Assembly (NCBI GenBank): GCA_020436225.1
Contig: JAGQYE010000009.1
Coordinates: forward strand, 1-52,421
DNA from: Bacteroidota bacterium
Lineage (GTDB): Bacteria; Bacteroidota; Bacteroidia; Chitinophagales; JADIYW01
Direction: 5' to 3'
DNA: 52,421 nt
Position numbers and translations under genes: made by a program. This document shows, one piece after another, positions 10,090 to 29,299 of the stretch. The notes under the pieces were generated by a model, which was not told where the DNA came from, searched no databases, and was given only the letters and a program-made list of their open reading frames with translations. Positions within the stretch are counted from its first letter, which is position 1, and every line of letters begins with the position of its first letter.

Positions 10090-11292
10090 TTATTTCAATT
10101 CTGATGAAGTTTTATTTAATAATCTTCTTGCAATAATAAGTTGCTGAATTTGTTGTGTGCCTTCAAAAATGTCTAATATTTTAGAATCTCTCGCCCATTT
10201 TTCAATCAATTCTTTATAAGAATAACCTAACGCACCACAAAGTTCAATACACTTTAACGCCGATGCATTCGTAGTGCGTGCTGCTTTTGCTTTGCAAACT
10301 GATGCTTCTAATGTATTCGGAATTCTATTATCAGCCATCCAAGCAGCTTTTAAAGTAAGCAATCGCGCAGCTTCATAATCGGCTTCCATTCTATAAAGCT
10401 CTGCTTCTGCTGCACGCACATTGTTAATAGGCGTTTTATAATCCAACGAAATTTCATTTTTCAATAATTCTTTTGTTCGTTCTAATGTTGCTTCTGCAAC
10501 ACCATTTGCCATTGAAGCCACAAAAGGTCTTGTATTGTCGAATGTTTCCATTACACCACCAAAACCTTTTTTTACATCAATATCCGGACTGCCCAATAAA
10601 TTGGCTGCCGGCACTCTACATTCAGTAAACACTATCGCAGCTGTGTCGGATGCTTTGATACCTAATTTTTTTTCTAAGCGCACCACTTCCATTCCCGGTG
10701 TTCCTTTCTCCACCACAAATGATTTTATGGCTGCTTTGCCTATTGATTTATCTAAGGTTGCCCACACTACAACAGCATTACAACGCTCGCCTGCCGTAAC
10801 AAAAATCTTTTCGCCATTCAACACATATTCATCACCTTCTTTTCTTGCAGTAGTAGTAATTGCTGAAGAATCGGAACCACAATTCGGTTCAGTGATAGCC
10901 ATTGCCGCCCACACTTCTGCAAAGCGTTCTTTTTGTTCTTTATTGGCAACTGCACTAATTGCAGCATTGCCCAATCCTTGTCGCGGAATTGATAACAGCA
11001 AACCGACATCACCATAACACATTGCTTGGATATTGATGCAATTTGCCATATTGCCGCCATTCTTCACACTCGAATTTGCATCGTTAGTGTCTGATTTTCC
11101 TGATGCGCCACCGATTGCACCTTCAGAACCATCATTTAACCCATTTAAACCTGCTGCCAGCAAGTCGAGTTCTTTTGGATATGCATGTTCTTCTAAATCG
11201 TATTTTCTTGAAATAGGTCGGAATATATTTTTTGCTGCGATAGTAGCCATTTGTGCTACACCATTAAACTTTTTTGGAATCTCTAAATTCAT
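10090..11292 (-). CDS. Acyl-CoA dehydrogenase subunit with catalytic Glu, lacking the usual FAD-contact Arg motif
   Basis: This 400-residue flavoprotein should introduce a trans-2,3 double bond into acyl-CoA. It keeps the FAD/substrate motif ITEPNCGSD (133-141), the segment NGEKIFVTAGE and the catalytic base in IFEGTQQIQQ (Glu377). Where homotetrameric relatives have R-x-x-FG-x-PI-x-x-x-Q, it has LLKNEISLDYKTPINNVRA (277-294), so that motif is lost. A Gly/Ser/Asn-rich insertion occupies residues 47-80. It lies 11 bp downstream of a second acyl-CoA dehydrogenase gene that has the opposite set of intact motifs, suggesting a heteromer. The substrate is unknown. Confidence 0.9.
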   Translation of the reverse strand: MNLEIPKKFNGVAQMATIAAKNIFRPISRKYDLEEHAYPKELDLLAAGLNGLNDGSEGAIGGASGKSDTNDANSSVKNGGNMANCINIQAMCYGDVGLLLSIPRQGLGNAAISAVANKEQKERFAEVWAAMAITEPNCGSDSSAITTTARKEGDEYVLNGEKIFVTAGERCNAVVVWATLDKSIGKAAIKSFVVEKGTPGMEVVRLEKKLGIKASDTAAIVFTECRVPAANLLGSPDIDVKKGFGGVMETFDNTRPFVASMANGVAEATLERTKELLKNEISLDYKTPINNVRAAEAELYRMEADYEAARLLTLKAAWMADNRIPNTLEASVCKAKAARTTNASALKCIELCGALGYSYKELIEKWARDSKILDIFEGTQQIQQLIIARRLLNKTSSELK

Positions 11293-11303
11293 TTTTTAAT
11301 TTT

Positions 11304-12632
11304 TTATAGATGAATACTATTATACATGATAGAAACAGCACGTAAATCGCGGTACCAACGTTCTACCGGAAAATCTTTGATGTAACCATGACCGCCTAAC
11401 AATTGAACGCCATTAGAGCCAATTTGCATAGATTTATCGCTGCAACAAACATGTGCTAAATATGCAGCACGCATAAAGTCAATGCCTTGCTCTGCTTGTG
11501 CTACTGCACGCTGTGTTAAAATGCGCATAGCATCTAATTCTATTTTCATATCAGCAATCATAAATGCTACTGCTTGTCGGTTGCTAATTGGTTCGCCAAA
11601 TGCAACTCTATCATTTGCGTATGAGATAACATAATCCAAAACAGCTTGACAAGCACCGACTGCCAATGCACACCAGCCTAATTTTGCCATTTGTATAAAC
11701 CGATGATAATCTATACCACCTGCTTCACCTAATTGTGCGCTTTTGTGAACACGAACATTATTTAGAATTATATCACTTAGTTGTGCCGATTTTAAGCCCA
11801 TAGCTTCACTATCAGTTATTGTAACACCATCTTGGTCTGCATCAACCATAAATAGTTGATTGTCGCCATTTTCAAGTTGAGCTGCAATTAAAAAATATTG
11901 ACATTTTTTTCCGAATGGAATTAACGTTTTTGTTCCGTTTAAAATAAAATGTTCATCTTCAATGATGGCCGTTGTAGTTAATTGATATGGATTAAAAAGT
12001 GGTTGTAATTCGTTGATGGCAATGCCTGCATATAATTTTTCTTCTTTAAAATATTCAGGAATTAATTCGGTTTGTTGCGCTTCACTTCCATATTCTACTA
12101 ATGCATTAATTACAGCATTGGAAGAATATAATGAGTATGCTTGACCTAAATCGCCATAGGCTAAAGTTTCTAAAATCAGCATTTGAGTGGTAATGGATTT
12201 CTCATTACTTAAACCACCTAAAGCTTCCGGAGTTTGTAAATAAGCTAATTGTAAATCGTTGTATGCATTCCAAATTTCATCAGAAATTTCTTTTTTCTCG
12301 TCTTGTTCTTGTGCTGCTGCACGTAATGCAACAGCAAACTCTTTTACAGATTCTTGAATCAGAGTTTGATCATCTGTATAATTTAAATCGAAAAAATCAT
12401 CAGGAATTTTATTGGAAAATCTATCAGGTGATTTTGCAGAAGATTGGAAAATCTTGCCTAAACTTTTTCCTGCTTTTATTCCATTTTTTGTTCCTTGATA
12501 AATAAATTTTTCCGACAATTCTCTCAACTTTAAACGTTGTGCAATTGGTGCATCTAATACTTTGTTATAGAAAACAAAATAATCATCGAGAGGAAGTTTT
12601 TGCCAGAAACTTTTTTTGGATTCATTTTTCAT
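11304..12632 (-). CDS. Acyl-CoA dehydrogenase-like subunit lacking the catalytic Glu
   Basis: The 442-residue protein has the acyl-CoA dehydrogenase fold (GGLSNE near 139, LAYGDLGQAYS, NGTKTLIPFG, GGHGYIKDFPVERWYRDLR near the end) after an extended N-terminus of about 85 residues. Three things stand out. The TEP-x-x-GSD flavin motif is replaced by INELQPLFNP (206-215). The sequence ends at SIMYNSIHL, so the Glu of the Y-E-G-T motif is replaced by Tyr/Asn and nothing follows. RVAFGEPISNRQ (342-353), the FAD-contact motif, is kept. It is unlikely to be active alone. It lies 11 bp upstream of a partner with the complementary motifs. A promoter is not clear; upstream lies repeat-rich DNA. Confidence 0.88.
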   Translation of the reverse strand: MKNESKKSFWQKLPLDDYFVFYNKVLDAPIAQRLKLRELSEKFIYQGTKNGIKAGKSLGKIFQSSAKSPDRFSNKIPDDFFDLNYTDDQTLIQESVKEFAVALRAAAQEQDEKKEISDEIWNAYNDLQLAYLQTPEALGGLSNEKSITTQMLILETLAYGDLGQAYSLYSSNAVINALVEYGSEAQQTELIPEYFKEEKLYAGIAINELQPLFNPYQLTTTAIIEDEHFILNGTKTLIPFGKKCQYFLIAAQLENGDNQLFMVDADQDGVTITDSEAMGLKSAQLSDIILNNVRVHKSAQLGEAGGIDYHRFIQMAKLGWCALAVGACQAVLDYVISYANDRVAFGEPISNRQAVAFMIADMKIELDAMRILTQRAVAQAEQGIDFMRAAYLAHVCCSDKSMQIGSNGVQLLGGHGYIKDFPVERWYRDLRAVSIMYNSIHL

Positions 12633-12982: not shown

Positions 12983-14578
12983 TTAATTAAACTCCGGATT
13001 ATTTTTCTTCATCGGGATTTTGCTCATTGCTCGTTCTGCTATGGCTGTTATACTTAAGCTTGGATTTACGCCAGGATTTGCCGATATCATACTACCATCG
13101 CAAACCATCATATTTTTATAATTGAACACAAAATTATCTTTATCAATCACTCCGCTTTGCGCATCTTTGCCCATACATGCACCGCCCAAAATATGTGCAG
13201 TTGTTGGAATGCCAAATAAGGTTTCTGTATTGATGACCATCGATTTCCCGTCAATAATTTTTTCTACTTCGTGTGCAATTTCCTGTGCCTTCGAATTAAA
13301 TGCCGTTGGTGCTGGTCCGGAATCTAAAGTAGTTTTTAATCCACCTAAAATATTGCGTTTAAAACTCAAGCTGGAATCTATACTTTCCATATACAACAAT
13401 ATTTGCGTGCGCTTACTCCAATCATCTACAAAGAAAATTTTTAAGTTGGCAATTGGATGCACCACAAAATCTTTTATCATTCTATATAAACGCGAGAAGA
13501 AAGTTTTACCATGTACCATTGGTGCCATAAAGATGCGCCAAAAACCGGCACCTTCAGAATATTTTACCGGTTCTAAATGTCGGCTTTCATCAATATTTAC
13601 TATTGAACCAATGGCAATACCTTCGGAGAAGGAAACATCTTTTCTAAACGTAGTAACTCCGATTAAACTTTCTGAATTGGTGCGTATTCCTGAACCTAAT
13701 GTATTGGATAAATTTGGTAAAGATTTTTCTTTCAACTTCAACAACAAATCTATCGTTCCTAAGACACCACCTGAAAAAATTACTGCTTTTGCTGTAACGC
13801 TTCCATGTTTTGGAAAATAAGAAAGAGAATCTTTGTATTTAATTTCATACCCATCGCTACCATCAATGTTTCCTAATGGTTTCACGTCATACACTAATTT
13901 TTCTGCGATGATTTCTACACCGAGTTGTTGTGCTAAATGCAAGTAATTTTTATCAAGTGTATTTTTTGCATTAAAGCGGCAACCCAACATACATCCACCA
14001 CATAAATTGCAACCGGTTCTGTCCGGACCTTTGCCTTCAAAATAAGGGTCGGGAACGGTTTCGTTGGGTTTACCAAAATAAACGGCTACATTGGTTTTAT
14101 CGAAGGCATCTGGTCTGCCCATTTTTGTTGCTAATTCCTGCATCACTTTATCACTACGACTCATATACGGATGTCGCTCTGCTCCTAACATTTTCAATGC
14201 GGTTGCATAAAAAGGTTGTAAAACTTCTTGCCAATTATCTAAGCCTTTCCAATGTCCGCTGTTGTAAAATTCTGATTTGGGTACAGGCAAAGTATTGGCA
14301 TACACCAAAGAACCGCCGCCAACACCAACACCGCTGACGATGGCTACATGGCGATAAAAAGTGAGCTTAAACAAGCCTTGCATTCCGAGTTTTGGCAACC
14401 ACATCCATTTGCGTAAATTCCAATTGGTAGTCGGAAAATCTTCGGGCTTTTTGAACCATTTTCCTTTTTCTATAACTAATACTTTATATCCTTTTTCTGC
14501 TAATCTTAATGCTGATACCGAGCCGCCAAAGCCACTGCCAATGATGACATAATCGTATTCCAAATTATTTGTTTGCAT
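12983..14578 (-). CDS. GMC-family FAD-dependent oxidoreductase (cholesterol-oxidase-like)
   Basis: This 531-residue flavoenzyme of the glucose-methanol-choline family starts with the Rossmann FAD motif VIIGSGFGGSVSALRLAEKG (11-30). SGVGVGGGSLVYANT is the second flavin segment. CNLCGGCMLGCRFNAKNTLDKNYL is a cysteine-rich segment common in the cholesterol-oxidase-like branch. The C-terminal substrate/FAD domain shows ILGGACMGKD and VCDGSMISANPGVNPSLSITAIAERA. It oxidises an alcohol group to ketone or aldehyde with O2 or another acceptor. The substrate cannot be inferred. No Tat-type or Sec signal is seen. Repeat-rich DNA lies on both sides, so no operon partner is evident. Confidence 0.9.
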   Translation of the reverse strand: MQTNNLEYDYVIIGSGFGGSVSALRLAEKGYKVLVIEKGKWFKKPEDFPTTNWNLRKWMWLPKLGMQGLFKLTFYRHVAIVSGVGVGGGSLVYANTLPVPKSEFYNSGHWKGLDNWQEVLQPFYATALKMLGAERHPYMSRSDKVMQELATKMGRPDAFDKTNVAVYFGKPNETVPDPYFEGKGPDRTGCNLCGGCMLGCRFNAKNTLDKNYLHLAQQLGVEIIAEKLVYDVKPLGNIDGSDGYEIKYKDSLSYFPKHGSVTAKAVIFSGGVLGTIDLLLKLKEKSLPNLSNTLGSGIRTNSESLIGVTTFRKDVSFSEGIAIGSIVNIDESRHLEPVKYSEGAGFWRIFMAPMVHGKTFFSRLYRMIKDFVVHPIANLKIFFVDDWSKRTQILLYMESIDSSLSFKRNILGGLKTTLDSGPAPTAFNSKAQEIAHEVEKIIDGKSMVINTETLFGIPTTAHILGGACMGKDAQSGVIDKDNFVFNYKNMMVCDGSMISANPGVNPSLSITAIAERAMSKIPMKKNNPEFN

Positions 14579-15047: not shown

Positions 15048-15953
15048 TTATTCGTCTCCAAGATACCGGTTTTTAAGTTCTTTTGTCCAATTTGCAGTTG
15101 AAATACTTGTCAACGTTTTAATAAAGTCGTCTAAATGGCAAGGATAAAAACAATTTTGCTCGTCATTGTCAAACGCAAGATATTGTTTGTAGCCGTCAAC
15201 ACCTTTTTGACATTGACTGTTTTTTGAAGGAAACAGAAAAACAAAAAATCCTTCGTCATAGTCTTGTCTTGTTGCAATGCAAAGAAGGTGGTCTCGCCAA
15301 ATTTGTGAAAGTGATGGTTGTCGTAAAAAGTCAACGCTGTTAGGTTTGAATAGTCCGCAAGTATTGGTTAAAGTCGCATATTGCTCTTTGAAGTTTTTAT
15401 TTGCCTTGTCTTTGGTTTCTTCTTTTAAACTTTCAGCATATTTTACTTCAATTCCAACAAACCCCTTTTTGTCGTCTTTTTTGTATTCTACAAAAACGTC
15501 AAACGCAGAATGGTCGCCAATATATTTTGTGTCGCCACGTCCGGGCGAATATTCAAACTTAACTGCTGTAATTGTGTCAATACGGTTTGGAAAAAGTTGT
15601 TTGAAATATTTTGTCGCCAAGTCTAAGTCAAAATGAAGTTCGCCAAACAAGTTGAAGCAAAGAGGTTGAGAGGAAAGTAAGTTGTTCCAAATTCTTGGTT
15701 CGCCAATAAGTCCGCCTGTCTTTTTTTTATTTGCAATTTCGTGTGTTACAAGTTGTCTAATGTTGTCGGTTAGGAAATTTGCTTTGCTTGTCTTTGCAAA
15801 TTCTGTGTCAATGAAGTTACCAAGTTTTAATTCTGGAAAACCTTTTTGTTGTCGCCACTTGCTTTGAAGTAGTCGTGCATAAGCTGAAAAGTCCGTGTCT
15901 TGCGGATAGTCAACATTGTATTTTATTCTTTCGTCTTTTGTTGGTCTTGTCAT
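15048..15953 (-). CDS. Putative PD-(D/E)XK nuclease, PGN_0703-like restriction endonuclease family
   Basis: The 301-residue protein carries a PD-(D/E)XK core: Asp152 in SAFDVFVEY, then Glu169-Val-Lys171 in GFVGIEVKYAE. Upstream, EPRIWNNLLSSQPLCFNLFGEL (about 85-106) matches the conserved segment of the PGN_0703-like family of putative restriction endonucleases. A role in DNA cleavage, perhaps in defence, is therefore likely. No methyltransferase or other restriction component is adjacent. The gene is isolated between GC-rich hairpins (14998-15027 and 15991-16102), a transposase remnant and REP-like repeats. This is typical of a horizontally acquired accessory gene. Target and activity are unknown. 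Confidence 0.75.
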   Translation of the reverse strand: MTRPTKDERIKYNVDYPQDTDFSAYARLLQSKWRQQKGFPELKLGNFIDTEFAKTSKANFLTDNIRQLVTHEIANKKKTGGLIGEPRIWNNLLSSQPLCFNLFGELHFDLDLATKYFKQLFPNRIDTITAVKFEYSPGRGDTKYIGDHSAFDVFVEYKKDDKKGFVGIEVKYAESLKEETKDKANKNFKEQYATLTNTCGLFKPNSVDFLRQPSLSQIWRDHLLCIATRQDYDEGFFVFLFPSKNSQCQKGVDGYKQYLAFDNDEQNCFYPCHLDDFIKTLTSISTANWTKELKNRYLGDE

Positions 15954-16485: not shown

Positions 16486-17445
16486 TTATGAATTGATTTT
16501 TTGCTGAAATTTTTCCCAACTATTTTTGCTAAGTTGATACGTTAAATATTCAATATAATAACTGCCTTTTCCTGCATCATCTAATTCATTAAAATAAGAT
16601 TCTTGTTGTAAGATATGTTGAATGTTTCGAGCTATTCTTCTTCCGAAATTTGTTGAAGATTTATTGCATTCGTGTGTATTTATAATAAGCTCATCGCAAC
16701 CACCAATGATGGCACTCATCGCTGCAGTTGTATTGCGTAAGATATTAGAATATTCATTTTCTGCATCAAAATTTTTGGTGCTTGTTTCGCATAAAATATT
16801 TACTTGATTTGGCAAGTTATAGATTTCTGCTGCTTGTTTCCACAACCAACGAAATGCACGTAACTTAGCAATTTCAAAAAAATAATTTTGTTTGATATAA
16901 AAATGAAAATGTGTGGATTTATTTTTAATGCCTTCTAAAAGTGCGACTGCTAATTCATCACTAATAGTTGATTGCTCGGGAATTTTTATATAGTTTGTGC
17001 AACTATTTTTTTCTATTTCTTCCAACACATTTCTATTTTCTTCTTTATAATTTTCAAAACGAACAGGCGCAACATCTAACAAAATATCTTGCAATAATGC
17101 TTGGATGTTTTCTTTATTTATTACTTGATGTTGAAGATTAAACACAATGGAAGTTGCGCCGTATTGCAAAGCTTCTAATGCTTGTTTATTAGCATCTTTA
17201 ATATCATCAACAATAATTCGCTCAACAATTTGCCAAGAATTTGAGTTGCGTTTAGGAATAGAAAGCTGATAGTTTAAGTTATCTTCTTTGGTATAAAAAG
17301 GCAATACATCAATTCCTTCACTACTGTGCCAAGTTAATTGCTCAAACGATTCACCTTTAAGTTCTTGAATAATTTTTTGTTTCCACTCTTCGGCTGTGTT
17401 GCCTTGGAATTGTTGATATATCGACTCCAACTTTTCTATTGACAT
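16486..17445 (-). CDS. mutA: Methylmalonyl-CoA mutase small-subunit-like protein (short form)
   Basis: The small (non-catalytic) subunit pairs with MutB in isomerising succinyl-CoA and methylmalonyl-CoA. The N-terminus EEWKQKIIQELKGESFEQLTWHSSEGIDVLPFYTKED is typical of the family. So are YFFEIAKLRAFRWLWKQ and the closing barrel segment GGCDELIINTHE through GKGSYYIEYLTYQL. No B12-binding domain is present, as expected for some Bacteroidota small subunits. At 319 residues it is much shorter than usual (about 450-620), with several compressed loops, but it is collinear and has no visible frameshift. The catalytic mutB gene usually follows. Here the repeat-rich nuclease region follows instead. 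It is 34 bp from the OmpA gene. Confidence 0.75.
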   Translation of the reverse strand: MSIEKLESIYQQFQGNTAEEWKQKIIQELKGESFEQLTWHSSEGIDVLPFYTKEDNLNYQLSIPKRNSNSWQIVERIIVDDIKDANKQALEALQYGATSIVFNLQHQVINKENIQALLQDILLDVAPVRFENYKEENRNVLEEIEKNSCTNYIKIPEQSTISDELAVALLEGIKNKSTHFHFYIKQNYFFEIAKLRAFRWLWKQAAEIYNLPNQVNILCETSTKNFDAENEYSNILRNTTAAMSAIIGGCDELIINTHECNKSSTNFGRRIARNIQHILQQESYFNELDDAGKGSYYIEYLTYQLSKNSWEKFQQKINS

Positions 17446-28111: not shown

Positions 28112-29299
28112 ATGGCTAATAGATATGCTGCTTCTTTCCGTGGTTTTGATTATTTGAATATTGACGAACAACTCAGTGATGAACAAAAATTAATTCGAGA
28201 AAGTATAAGAAATTGGATAAATGCATCAGTTGTGCCAATTATAGAATCGTGTGCTGAGAAAAATGAATTTCCAAAACACTTAATTCAAGAATTAGGAAAA
28301 ATTGGAGCGTTTGGACCACATATTCCTGAAGAATATGGCGGCGGCGGTTTAGATGCAATTTCCTATGGATTGATAATGCAAGAATTAGAACGTGGCGATT
28401 CAGGAATCAGAAGTTGCGCTAGTGTACAAAGTTCTTTAGTAATGTATCCAATATGGAAATTTGGAAGTGAAGCACAAAAACAAAAATATTTACCAAAATT
28501 GGCAAGCGGCGAACTTTTAGGAAGCTTTGGACTTACTGAACCGAATCACGGTAGCGATCCATCGTCTATGGAAACTCGGTTAGTGAACAGAAATGGCAAA
28601 TATTACCTCAATGGCTCAAAAATGTGGATAACCAACGCTCCAATGTGCGATATTGCAATTGTTTGGGCGAAAAATGAAGATAAAAAAGTAATTGGTTGTA
28701 TTGTGGAACGCGAAATGCCTGGATTTTCGACGCCAAGCATCAACGGAAAATGGAGTTTGCGTGCTTCAGCTACCGGAGAATTACTTTTTGAAGATGTGGA
28801 AATTCCAGAAGAAAATATTTTGCCATTAGCAAACGGCTTGAAAGCGCCTTTGTCTTGCTTATCTTCTGCGCGCTTTGGAATTAGCTTTGGCGTGCTTGGT
28901 GCAGCTATGGATTGCTTACATCATGCCGTAGAATACAGTAAAGAACGCACACAATTTGGAAAGCCATTAGCATCATTTCAATTAACTCAAAAAAAAATTG
29001 CCGAAATGCTAACTGAATTAAGCAAAGCTCAATTACTTTCATTTCAAGTTGGAAACCTCTACAATGCTAATAAAATAACGCCTGCACAAATATCAATGGC
29101 AAAACGCAACAATGTAGAAATGGCATTAAATACCGCTAGGGTTTGCCGACAAATCTGCGGTGCTATGGGCATCACACAAGAATTTCCATTTATGCGACAC
29201 GCAATGAATTTAGAAAGCGTAATCACATACGAAGGAACTCATGATGTGCATTTACTTATAACCGGAATGGACATCACCGGAATTAATGCTTTTAGTTAA
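28112..29299 (+). CDS. Acyl-CoA dehydrogenase, glutaryl-CoA dehydrogenase type
   Basis: The 395-residue flavoenzyme keeps every canonical motif, unlike the paired genes at 10090-12632: GLTEPNHGSDPSS, WITNAPMCDIAIVWAK, the FAD-contact motif RTQFGKPLASFQLTQ and the catalytic Glu374 in ITYEGTHDVHLLITGMDITGINAF. The THD-[VI]-H sequence and the C-terminal ITGINAF are characteristic of glutaryl-CoA dehydrogenase. That enzyme makes crotonyl-CoA by oxidation and decarboxylation in lysine and tryptophan breakdown. It should form a homotetramer. The enoyl-CoA hydratase at 41285-42064 could act on its product. Substrate preference is inferred from family resemblance. Confidence 0.92.
   Translation: MANRYAASFRGFDYLNIDEQLSDEQKLIRESIRNWINASVVPIIESCAEKNEFPKHLIQELGKIGAFGPHIPEEYGGGGLDAISYGLIMQELERGDSGIRSCASVQSSLVMYPIWKFGSEAQKQKYLPKLASGELLGSFGLTEPNHGSDPSSMETRLVNRNGKYYLNGSKMWITNAPMCDIAIVWAKNEDKKVIGCIVEREMPGFSTPSINGKWSLRASATGELLFEDVEIPEENILPLANGLKAPLSCLSSARFGISFGVLGAAMDCLHHAVEYSKERTQFGKPLASFQLTQKKIAEMLTELSKAQLLSFQVGNLYNANKITPAQISMAKRNNVEMALNTARVCRQICGAMGITQEFPFMRHAMNLESVITYEGTHDVHLLITGMDITGINAFS

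Follow-up and report, generated by a model that had tools for sequence, protein, structure and literature searches.

Two adjacent genes in the analysed DNA (a 52,421-nucleotide stretch of a Chitinophagales genome, hereafter the window) very probably encode the two subunits, a catalytic alpha and an FAD-clamping beta, of an acyl-CoA dehydrogenase that is an obligate heteromer and most likely an alpha2-beta2 tetramer. In homotetrameric acyl-CoA dehydrogenases, each FAD is held between the two subunits of a dimer, one contributing its TEP-GSD/EGT side and the other its R-x-x-FG and Q-x-x-GG motifs. In the putative heteromer, alpha would provide Glu377 as the base as well as the flavin/thioester site, and beta would clamp the FAD of alpha through R342, F345 and G346, together with Q410 and G413-G414. 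The reverse site would be dead on both sides, which would leave each alpha-beta pair with a single FAD and a single active site, and the tetramer with two of each. We infer the complex and its stoichiometry, as well as an alpha,beta-dehydrogenation of acyl-CoA with electrons passed to ETF, from sequence comparisons. The original prediction of an obligate heteromer with half of the active sites is supported by motif losses fixed in about 85 pairs, by two genes that were never found apart in 289 genomes, and by the mirrored conservation of their products.

Motifs kept and lost in the two subunits

An ORF check of the window placed the beta gene (442 aa; 11304..12632) upstream of the alpha gene (400 aa; 10090..11292) on the same strand, with 11 bp between them; both genes, and all of their features given below, are on the minus strand. 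Both proteins belong to the acyl-CoA dehydrogenase superfamily: the middle and C-terminal domains (PF02770 and PF00441) were matched by alpha and beta and the N-terminal domain (PF02771) by beta only, alpha aligned with a solved acyl-CoA dehydrogenase over residues 7-392, and beta had a fold match. Alpha appears to be the catalytic acyl-CoA dehydrogenase and beta an FAD-holding, non-catalytic paralogue. The ORFs and the motif reading confirmed the adjacency and the complementary motif losses that had been noted earlier.

The flavin/substrate motif is retained in alpha as TEPNCGSD at residues 134-141 (10870..10893), one residue short of the predicted 133-141 although its presence had been predicted correctly, and the catalytic Glu377 is retained in EGT at 377-379 (10156..10164), where it falls on rat SCAD Glu368 and corresponds to MCAD Glu376. 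Both TEPxxGSD and Glu377 are invariant in 89/89 alphas. The R-x-x-FG motif is absent, as had been read originally, and this too is fixed in the 89 alphas: NEISLDYKTPI stands where it is expected, and EISLDYKT (280-287; 10432..10455) is among the least conserved stretches of alpha. The second partner-FAD motif, Q-x-x-GG (MCAD Q349/G352-G353), a loss absent from the original prediction, is also gone, with ELCGA at 350-354 (10231..10245) placing E350 (in 88/89 alphas) and G353-A354 at these positions.

Beta retains what alpha has lost. The window beta reads R342-V-A-F-G-E-P-I349 (11586..11609) and Q410-L-L-G-G414 (11391..11405), both partner-FAD contacts; R-x-A-F-G-E-P-I, with all but residue 343 invariant, and the Q and GG of the second motif were found in 87/87 betas. 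The TEP-x-x-GSD region is degenerate (NELQPLFNP, 207-215; 11988..12014), and TEPxxGSD occurs in 0/87 betas. The chain ends in MYNSIHL, in which Tyr437 of YNSIHL (437-442; 11307..11324) occupies the position of the catalytic Glu, and no C-terminal helix follows; all betas share the aligned end residue. In the predicted structure Tyr437 superposes on MCAD 376, after which 5 residues remain, whereas MCAD runs to about residue 395. The beta part of the original motif reading was thus borne out in the sequence and is fixed in the 87 betas.

An aligned catalytic Glu in beta, which the original prediction had named as evidence against itself, is missing from the window beta but was found in 7/87 betas (L030, L055, L059, L060, L066, L077 and L082, all type I), which lack TEP-GSD and the C-terminal helix all the same and are perhaps intermediates in the loss of the catalytic base. 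Type I betas carry an N-terminal extension (residues 1-80 of the window beta; 12393..12632), which was modelled as helical with low confidence and whose profile found, among the matches listed, only betas of the present lineage. The extension is absent from four type II betas (L102, L103, L104 and L105; 372-409 aa), each with an alpha partner beside it; one of these, L102, ends in LEGTFHL and is likewise without TEP-GSD and the C-terminal helix.

Neither alpha nor beta carries both FAD motif sets in one chain as homotetrameric MCAD and SCAD do; the base and flavin motif are on one protein and the partner-FAD motifs on the other, as in heteromeric acyl-CoA dehydrogenases. An ordinary acyl-CoA dehydrogenase at 28112-29299 (plus strand) of the window served as an internal control and has TEPNHGSD, RTQFGKPL and YEGT in a single chain; its product resembles glutaryl-CoA dehydrogenase. 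Among the single acyl-CoA dehydrogenases of the window genome, P. aeruginosa PA7 and an Acinetobacter, 21/25 have TEPxxGSD and R-x-x-FG in one chain, a figure that is a description and not a test because the grouping itself was based on these motifs.

Orthologues for the comparative analyses came from eight relatives and from scanning 84,980 species genomes, 89 alphas and 87 betas in all; since a few rows are one genome reached by two routes, somewhat fewer pairs are independent. Entropy windows, computed on rows at most 90% identical, mirrored each other in the two subunits. Beta 338-357, with R-x-x-FG, was within the lowest 0.2% of windows, and the RWYRD stretch was also among the most conserved of beta; in alpha, EGT was within the lowest 1.3% and the former R-x-x-FG region within the highest 3%. 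It is improbable that alpha is a self-sufficient homo-oligomer with altered FAD binding and beta a distinct paralogue that merely accompanies it in a regulatory or scaffolding role, such as that of an adaptor to ETF or the membrane. Every catalytic motif is kept in alpha, the N-terminal extension of beta could bind something else, and L005, a single acyl-CoA dehydrogenase of the window genome, is also without the strict R-x-x-FG pattern, so that loss of this pattern, seen in at least one single enzyme, is not unique to heteromers. However, the most conserved residues of beta are the FAD-ADP contacts that alpha has lost, which would be needless in an adaptor, and alpha was never without beta in the genomes sampled. 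That beta is a decaying pseudo-enzyme with no present function is hardly credible: although its catalytic site is lost and it evolves faster (44-55% identity to the window protein within the family, versus 71-83% for alpha), its frame is open, its end is fixed, and 48 columns, clustered at the FAD contacts, do not vary among 55 divergent rows; it is also retained beside alpha across two phyla.

The predicted structure of the window beta (45 rows) had a pLDDT of 84.5 and a pTM of 0.84, and its residues 80-438 matched MCAD with a Z of 41. The ChsE4/ChsE5 (4x28) chains were not among the best 50 fold matches; entries of the related Tcur3481-Tcur3483 were. For one relative (L019), the in-frame genes were read through their stops and modelled as a fusion of beta, a 40-residue linker and alpha (875 residues; pLDDT 74.7, only moderate in the alpha half; pTM 0.80), in which proximity is forced by the linker. 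By superposition and residue ranges, MCAD 377-392, which are missing from beta, coincide with a stretch of the fusion that reaches residue 778, or about residue 303 of alpha, beside the lost R-x-x-FG. Indirectly, such an overlap agrees with the classical dimer of acyl-CoA dehydrogenases, alpha taking the position of the missing tail of beta. More tentatively, and with the balance somewhat against it, the split-site dehydrogenase might have been invented independently on an MCAD-type (Glu376) subunit, with the former R-x-x-FG region of alpha filling the space of the missing helix of beta and the dead site acting as an interlock that bars homodimers.

Co-occurrence, distribution and origin of the pair

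Alpha and beta were observed in an identical 9/60 genomes of relatives (E<=1e-60 for both; Fisher p 7e-11, indicative as relatedness is ignored), and four congeners, of which two are 100% complete, have neither gene. In the class of P. aeruginosa, they were again found in identical genomes, 6/229 (1e-50 for beta and 1e-90 for alpha; Fisher p 5e-12, relatedness again ignored and the value indicative). No alpha without beta, or beta without alpha, was found among the 289 sampled genomes, and the solitary subunits that would have argued against the original prediction were thus looked for and not encountered. Beta was directly upstream of alpha on the same strand in 78/80 loci of the genome scan, with a gap of 10-149 bp (median 16 bp), and the remaining 2/80 loci sit at contig ends. 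The pair therefore shows the adjacency and co-inheritance of heteromeric acyl-CoA dehydrogenases.

Some genomes contained an additional pair, or else a short beta that lacks the N-terminal extension but again has a neighbouring alpha. At two loci (L025 5434-7911; G368:C22:13221-16850), one beta was followed by two tandem alphas, the second alpha of L025 being 68% identical to the window alpha, which suggests that tandem alphas are alternative catalytic subunits on one shared beta. If the tentative interlock described above were true, such duplicated alphas would be interchangeable catalytic halves with a common FAD-holding partner.

The genome scan placed the pair mostly in Gammaproteobacteria, with alpha at 65-70% identity and carriers including Pseudomonas, Acinetobacter, Alcanivorax and Marinobacter; the Bacteroidota carriers were one Chitinophagales family. 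At the threshold used, the remaining Bacteroidota genomes in the sample had no alpha. In the trees of both alpha and beta, the Bacteroidota formed one supported clade inside gammaproteobacterial sequences, although deeper beta branches were moderately supported. Because the Bacteroidota clade nests in this way for alpha and beta alike, the Chitinophagales family probably acquired the pair from a gammaproteobacterial lineage by horizontal transfer; a Bacteroidota-specific origin was rejected on the evidence of the genome scan and the trees.

The locus of P. aeruginosa PA7 comes after an ABC exporter and a bifunctional hldE-like gene, and from these neighbours we take the PA7 pair to be PA4995 (beta) and PA4994 (alpha) of PAO1. 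PA4995 has been placed beside rfaE (PMC4243448). PA4995-PA4994 is an orthologous pair (alpha 65-70% and beta about 37-46% identity) with the same motif pattern and gene order, and neither it nor its equivalents in Acinetobacter, Alcanivorax and Marinobacter differ in kind from the window pair. The two genes are annotated merely as two probable acyl-CoA dehydrogenases. In the P. aeruginosa literature, we found them only in statements on expression or gene position and found no biochemical study; other presumed locus tags led to nothing relevant. Our literature search found no experimental work on this lineage and, with most subscription papers outside its reach, no heteromeric acyl-CoA dehydrogenase in Bacteroidota. 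In Pseudomonas, Acinetobacter and relatives, the two genes have apparently not been described together.

A separate heteromer lineage with the classical MCAD base would be common in Gammaproteobacteria and present in one Bacteroidota family, and each of its genes is annotated as a complete enzyme. Studies that knock out, express or annotate a single one of them, such as PA4994 or PA4995, would be misread, and either gene expressed singly is predicted to give an FAD-free, inactive protein. The seven Glu-bearing betas and the tandem alphas could serve as intermediates for studying the transition from homomer to obligate heteromer.

Gene neighbours and putative substrate

A FATP-type long-chain-acyl-CoA synthetase gene (NF006134, above cut-off) adjoins the pair in 5/8 Bacteroidota loci (L018, L019, L020, L023 and L025), and in L018 it overlaps the end of alpha. 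No relative of the synthetase was found beside the pair in gammaproteobacterial loci at the threshold used. In a microarray study, PA4994 and PA4995 rose moderately on sphingomyelin along with FadB5/FadA5 (fadBA5) (PMC5150637). Together, the synthetase in these loci and the rise with fadBA5 suggest a long-chain fatty acyl-CoA as the substrate. This best guess is less certain than the heteromer and draws on the gene neighbourhood in a single family and on a single microarray statement.

In the window, the gene directly upstream of the pair encodes a cholesterol-oxidase-like GMC oxidoreductase (12983-14578, minus strand; 589 bits against NF058674, whose cut-off is 850). A steroid role was considered from this gene and rejected, since no relative of it adjoins the pair at other loci. 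Further along the same strand are genes for a restriction-endonuclease-like protein (15048-15953; PDDEXK_13, REase-ARP) and for a 319-aa protein with a partial methylmalonyl-CoA mutase match (16486-17445; profile 247-390 of 512), which may be a short non-catalytic mutase subunit. In gamma proteobacterium HdN1, a protein with a T6SS Tle1-like phospholipase domain is encoded beside the pair (L030 9251-11002, minus strand).

Comparison with known acyl-CoA dehydrogenases

Steroid and dicarboxylate degraders are the known sources of heteromeric acyl-CoA dehydrogenases. In the known enzymes, alpha binds the isoalloxazine and carries the Glu, beta contacts the ADP-ribose, each tetramer has two active sites, and activity needs the heteromer (PMC11153573, PMC8399759). 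ChsE4-ChsE5 (FadE26-FadE27), ChsE1-ChsE2 (Mycobacterium tuberculosis), Tcur3481-Tcur3483, Scd1AB and IpdE1-IpdE2 are encoded by adjacent genes like the window pair. ChsE-type enzymes have the flavin/substrate site and the base on one subunit and the ADP part of FAD held by the other, and the motifs of the window pair are split likewise; the ChsE4-ChsE5-like division of labour that had been proposed gains support from the complementary losses. Two FADs are bound per alpha2-beta2 tetramer in ChsE-type enzymes (PMC11153573, PMC8399759), as is predicted for the window pair. Unlike ChsE-type betas, the window beta is cut off right after the EGT position and has an added N-terminal extension, and the pair has no conserved steroid gene context.

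The catalytic base also differs. In ChsE4, Glu247, which we take to be the catalytic base, aligns in LNHER and no Glu is present at the EGT position, whereas the present alphas have FDNTRP together with EGT (89/89), so that the base of the window alpha would be at the MCAD Glu376 position. The pattern of ChsE and PimC alphas, with no Glu at EGT and a base at the Glu247 position, was therefore not observed. A clade uniting the present alphas with ChsE4- and PimC-like alphas was rejected (p-AU 0.02), and a placement of the present alpha and beta as sisters was not (p-AU 0.31); for the betas, the best tree joined the present ones with ChsE- and PimD-type proteins with support of 81/96 (unstarred, with long branches). 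The alpha lineage looks independent of ChsE/PimCD. The original prediction had envisaged an independent or little-described Bacteroidota case, of which the independence of alpha gained support (base at the Glu376 position, tree) and the invention in Bacteroidota did not, the pair being widespread in Gammaproteobacteria and nested there.

The pair is very unlikely to be a Bacteroidota representative of the known heteromeric enzymes for steroid side chains (ChsE/Scd/IpdE type), even though the division of labour is the same (PMC11153573, PMC8399759) and the upstream gene is cholesterol-oxidase-like. The NF058674 match is below cut-off and that gene is not beside the pair elsewhere, and both the Glu377 base and the rejected clade of alphas argue against such membership. 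Most carriers are Pseudomonas and Acinetobacter species that, to our knowledge, are not known as sterol degraders. An obligate heteromer of a separate lineage remains our preferred reading.

Pairs found through the PimC and IpdE2 models in the same genomes show the same division of labour by motif, and for one such alpha Tcur3483 and ChsE4 (4x28) are the only solved relatives at E<1e-40. IpdE2 was not found above cut-off in the window genome, nor were IpdE2 and PimC above cut-off in the control genomes and five gamma/beta-proteobacterial genomes; clear relatives were present in both cases. For the pimeloyl-CoA dehydrogenase PimC-PimD and its beta-proteobacterial dicarboxylyl-CoA relatives, heterotetramers have been suggested (PMC12543098). 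PimC- and PimD-like proteins are encoded by paired genes with the same loss pattern as the window pair, but the window alpha scored 43 bits against PimC (cut-off 624) and the window beta 67 bits against PimD (cut-off 653), IYGGS replaces EGT in PimC-like alphas, and the clades are separate. CasC of Rhodococcus jostii has an FAD-holding half followed by a catalytic half, matching the beta-then-alpha gene order (PMC8399759), but it is a single fused polypeptide that acts on bile-acid CoA esters, whereas the window has two genes. MCAD and SCAD homotetramers share the fold, the middle-domain motif and the position of the base with alpha, and the fold with beta (Z about 41); each of their subunits has both motif sets, which the window pair splits over two genes.
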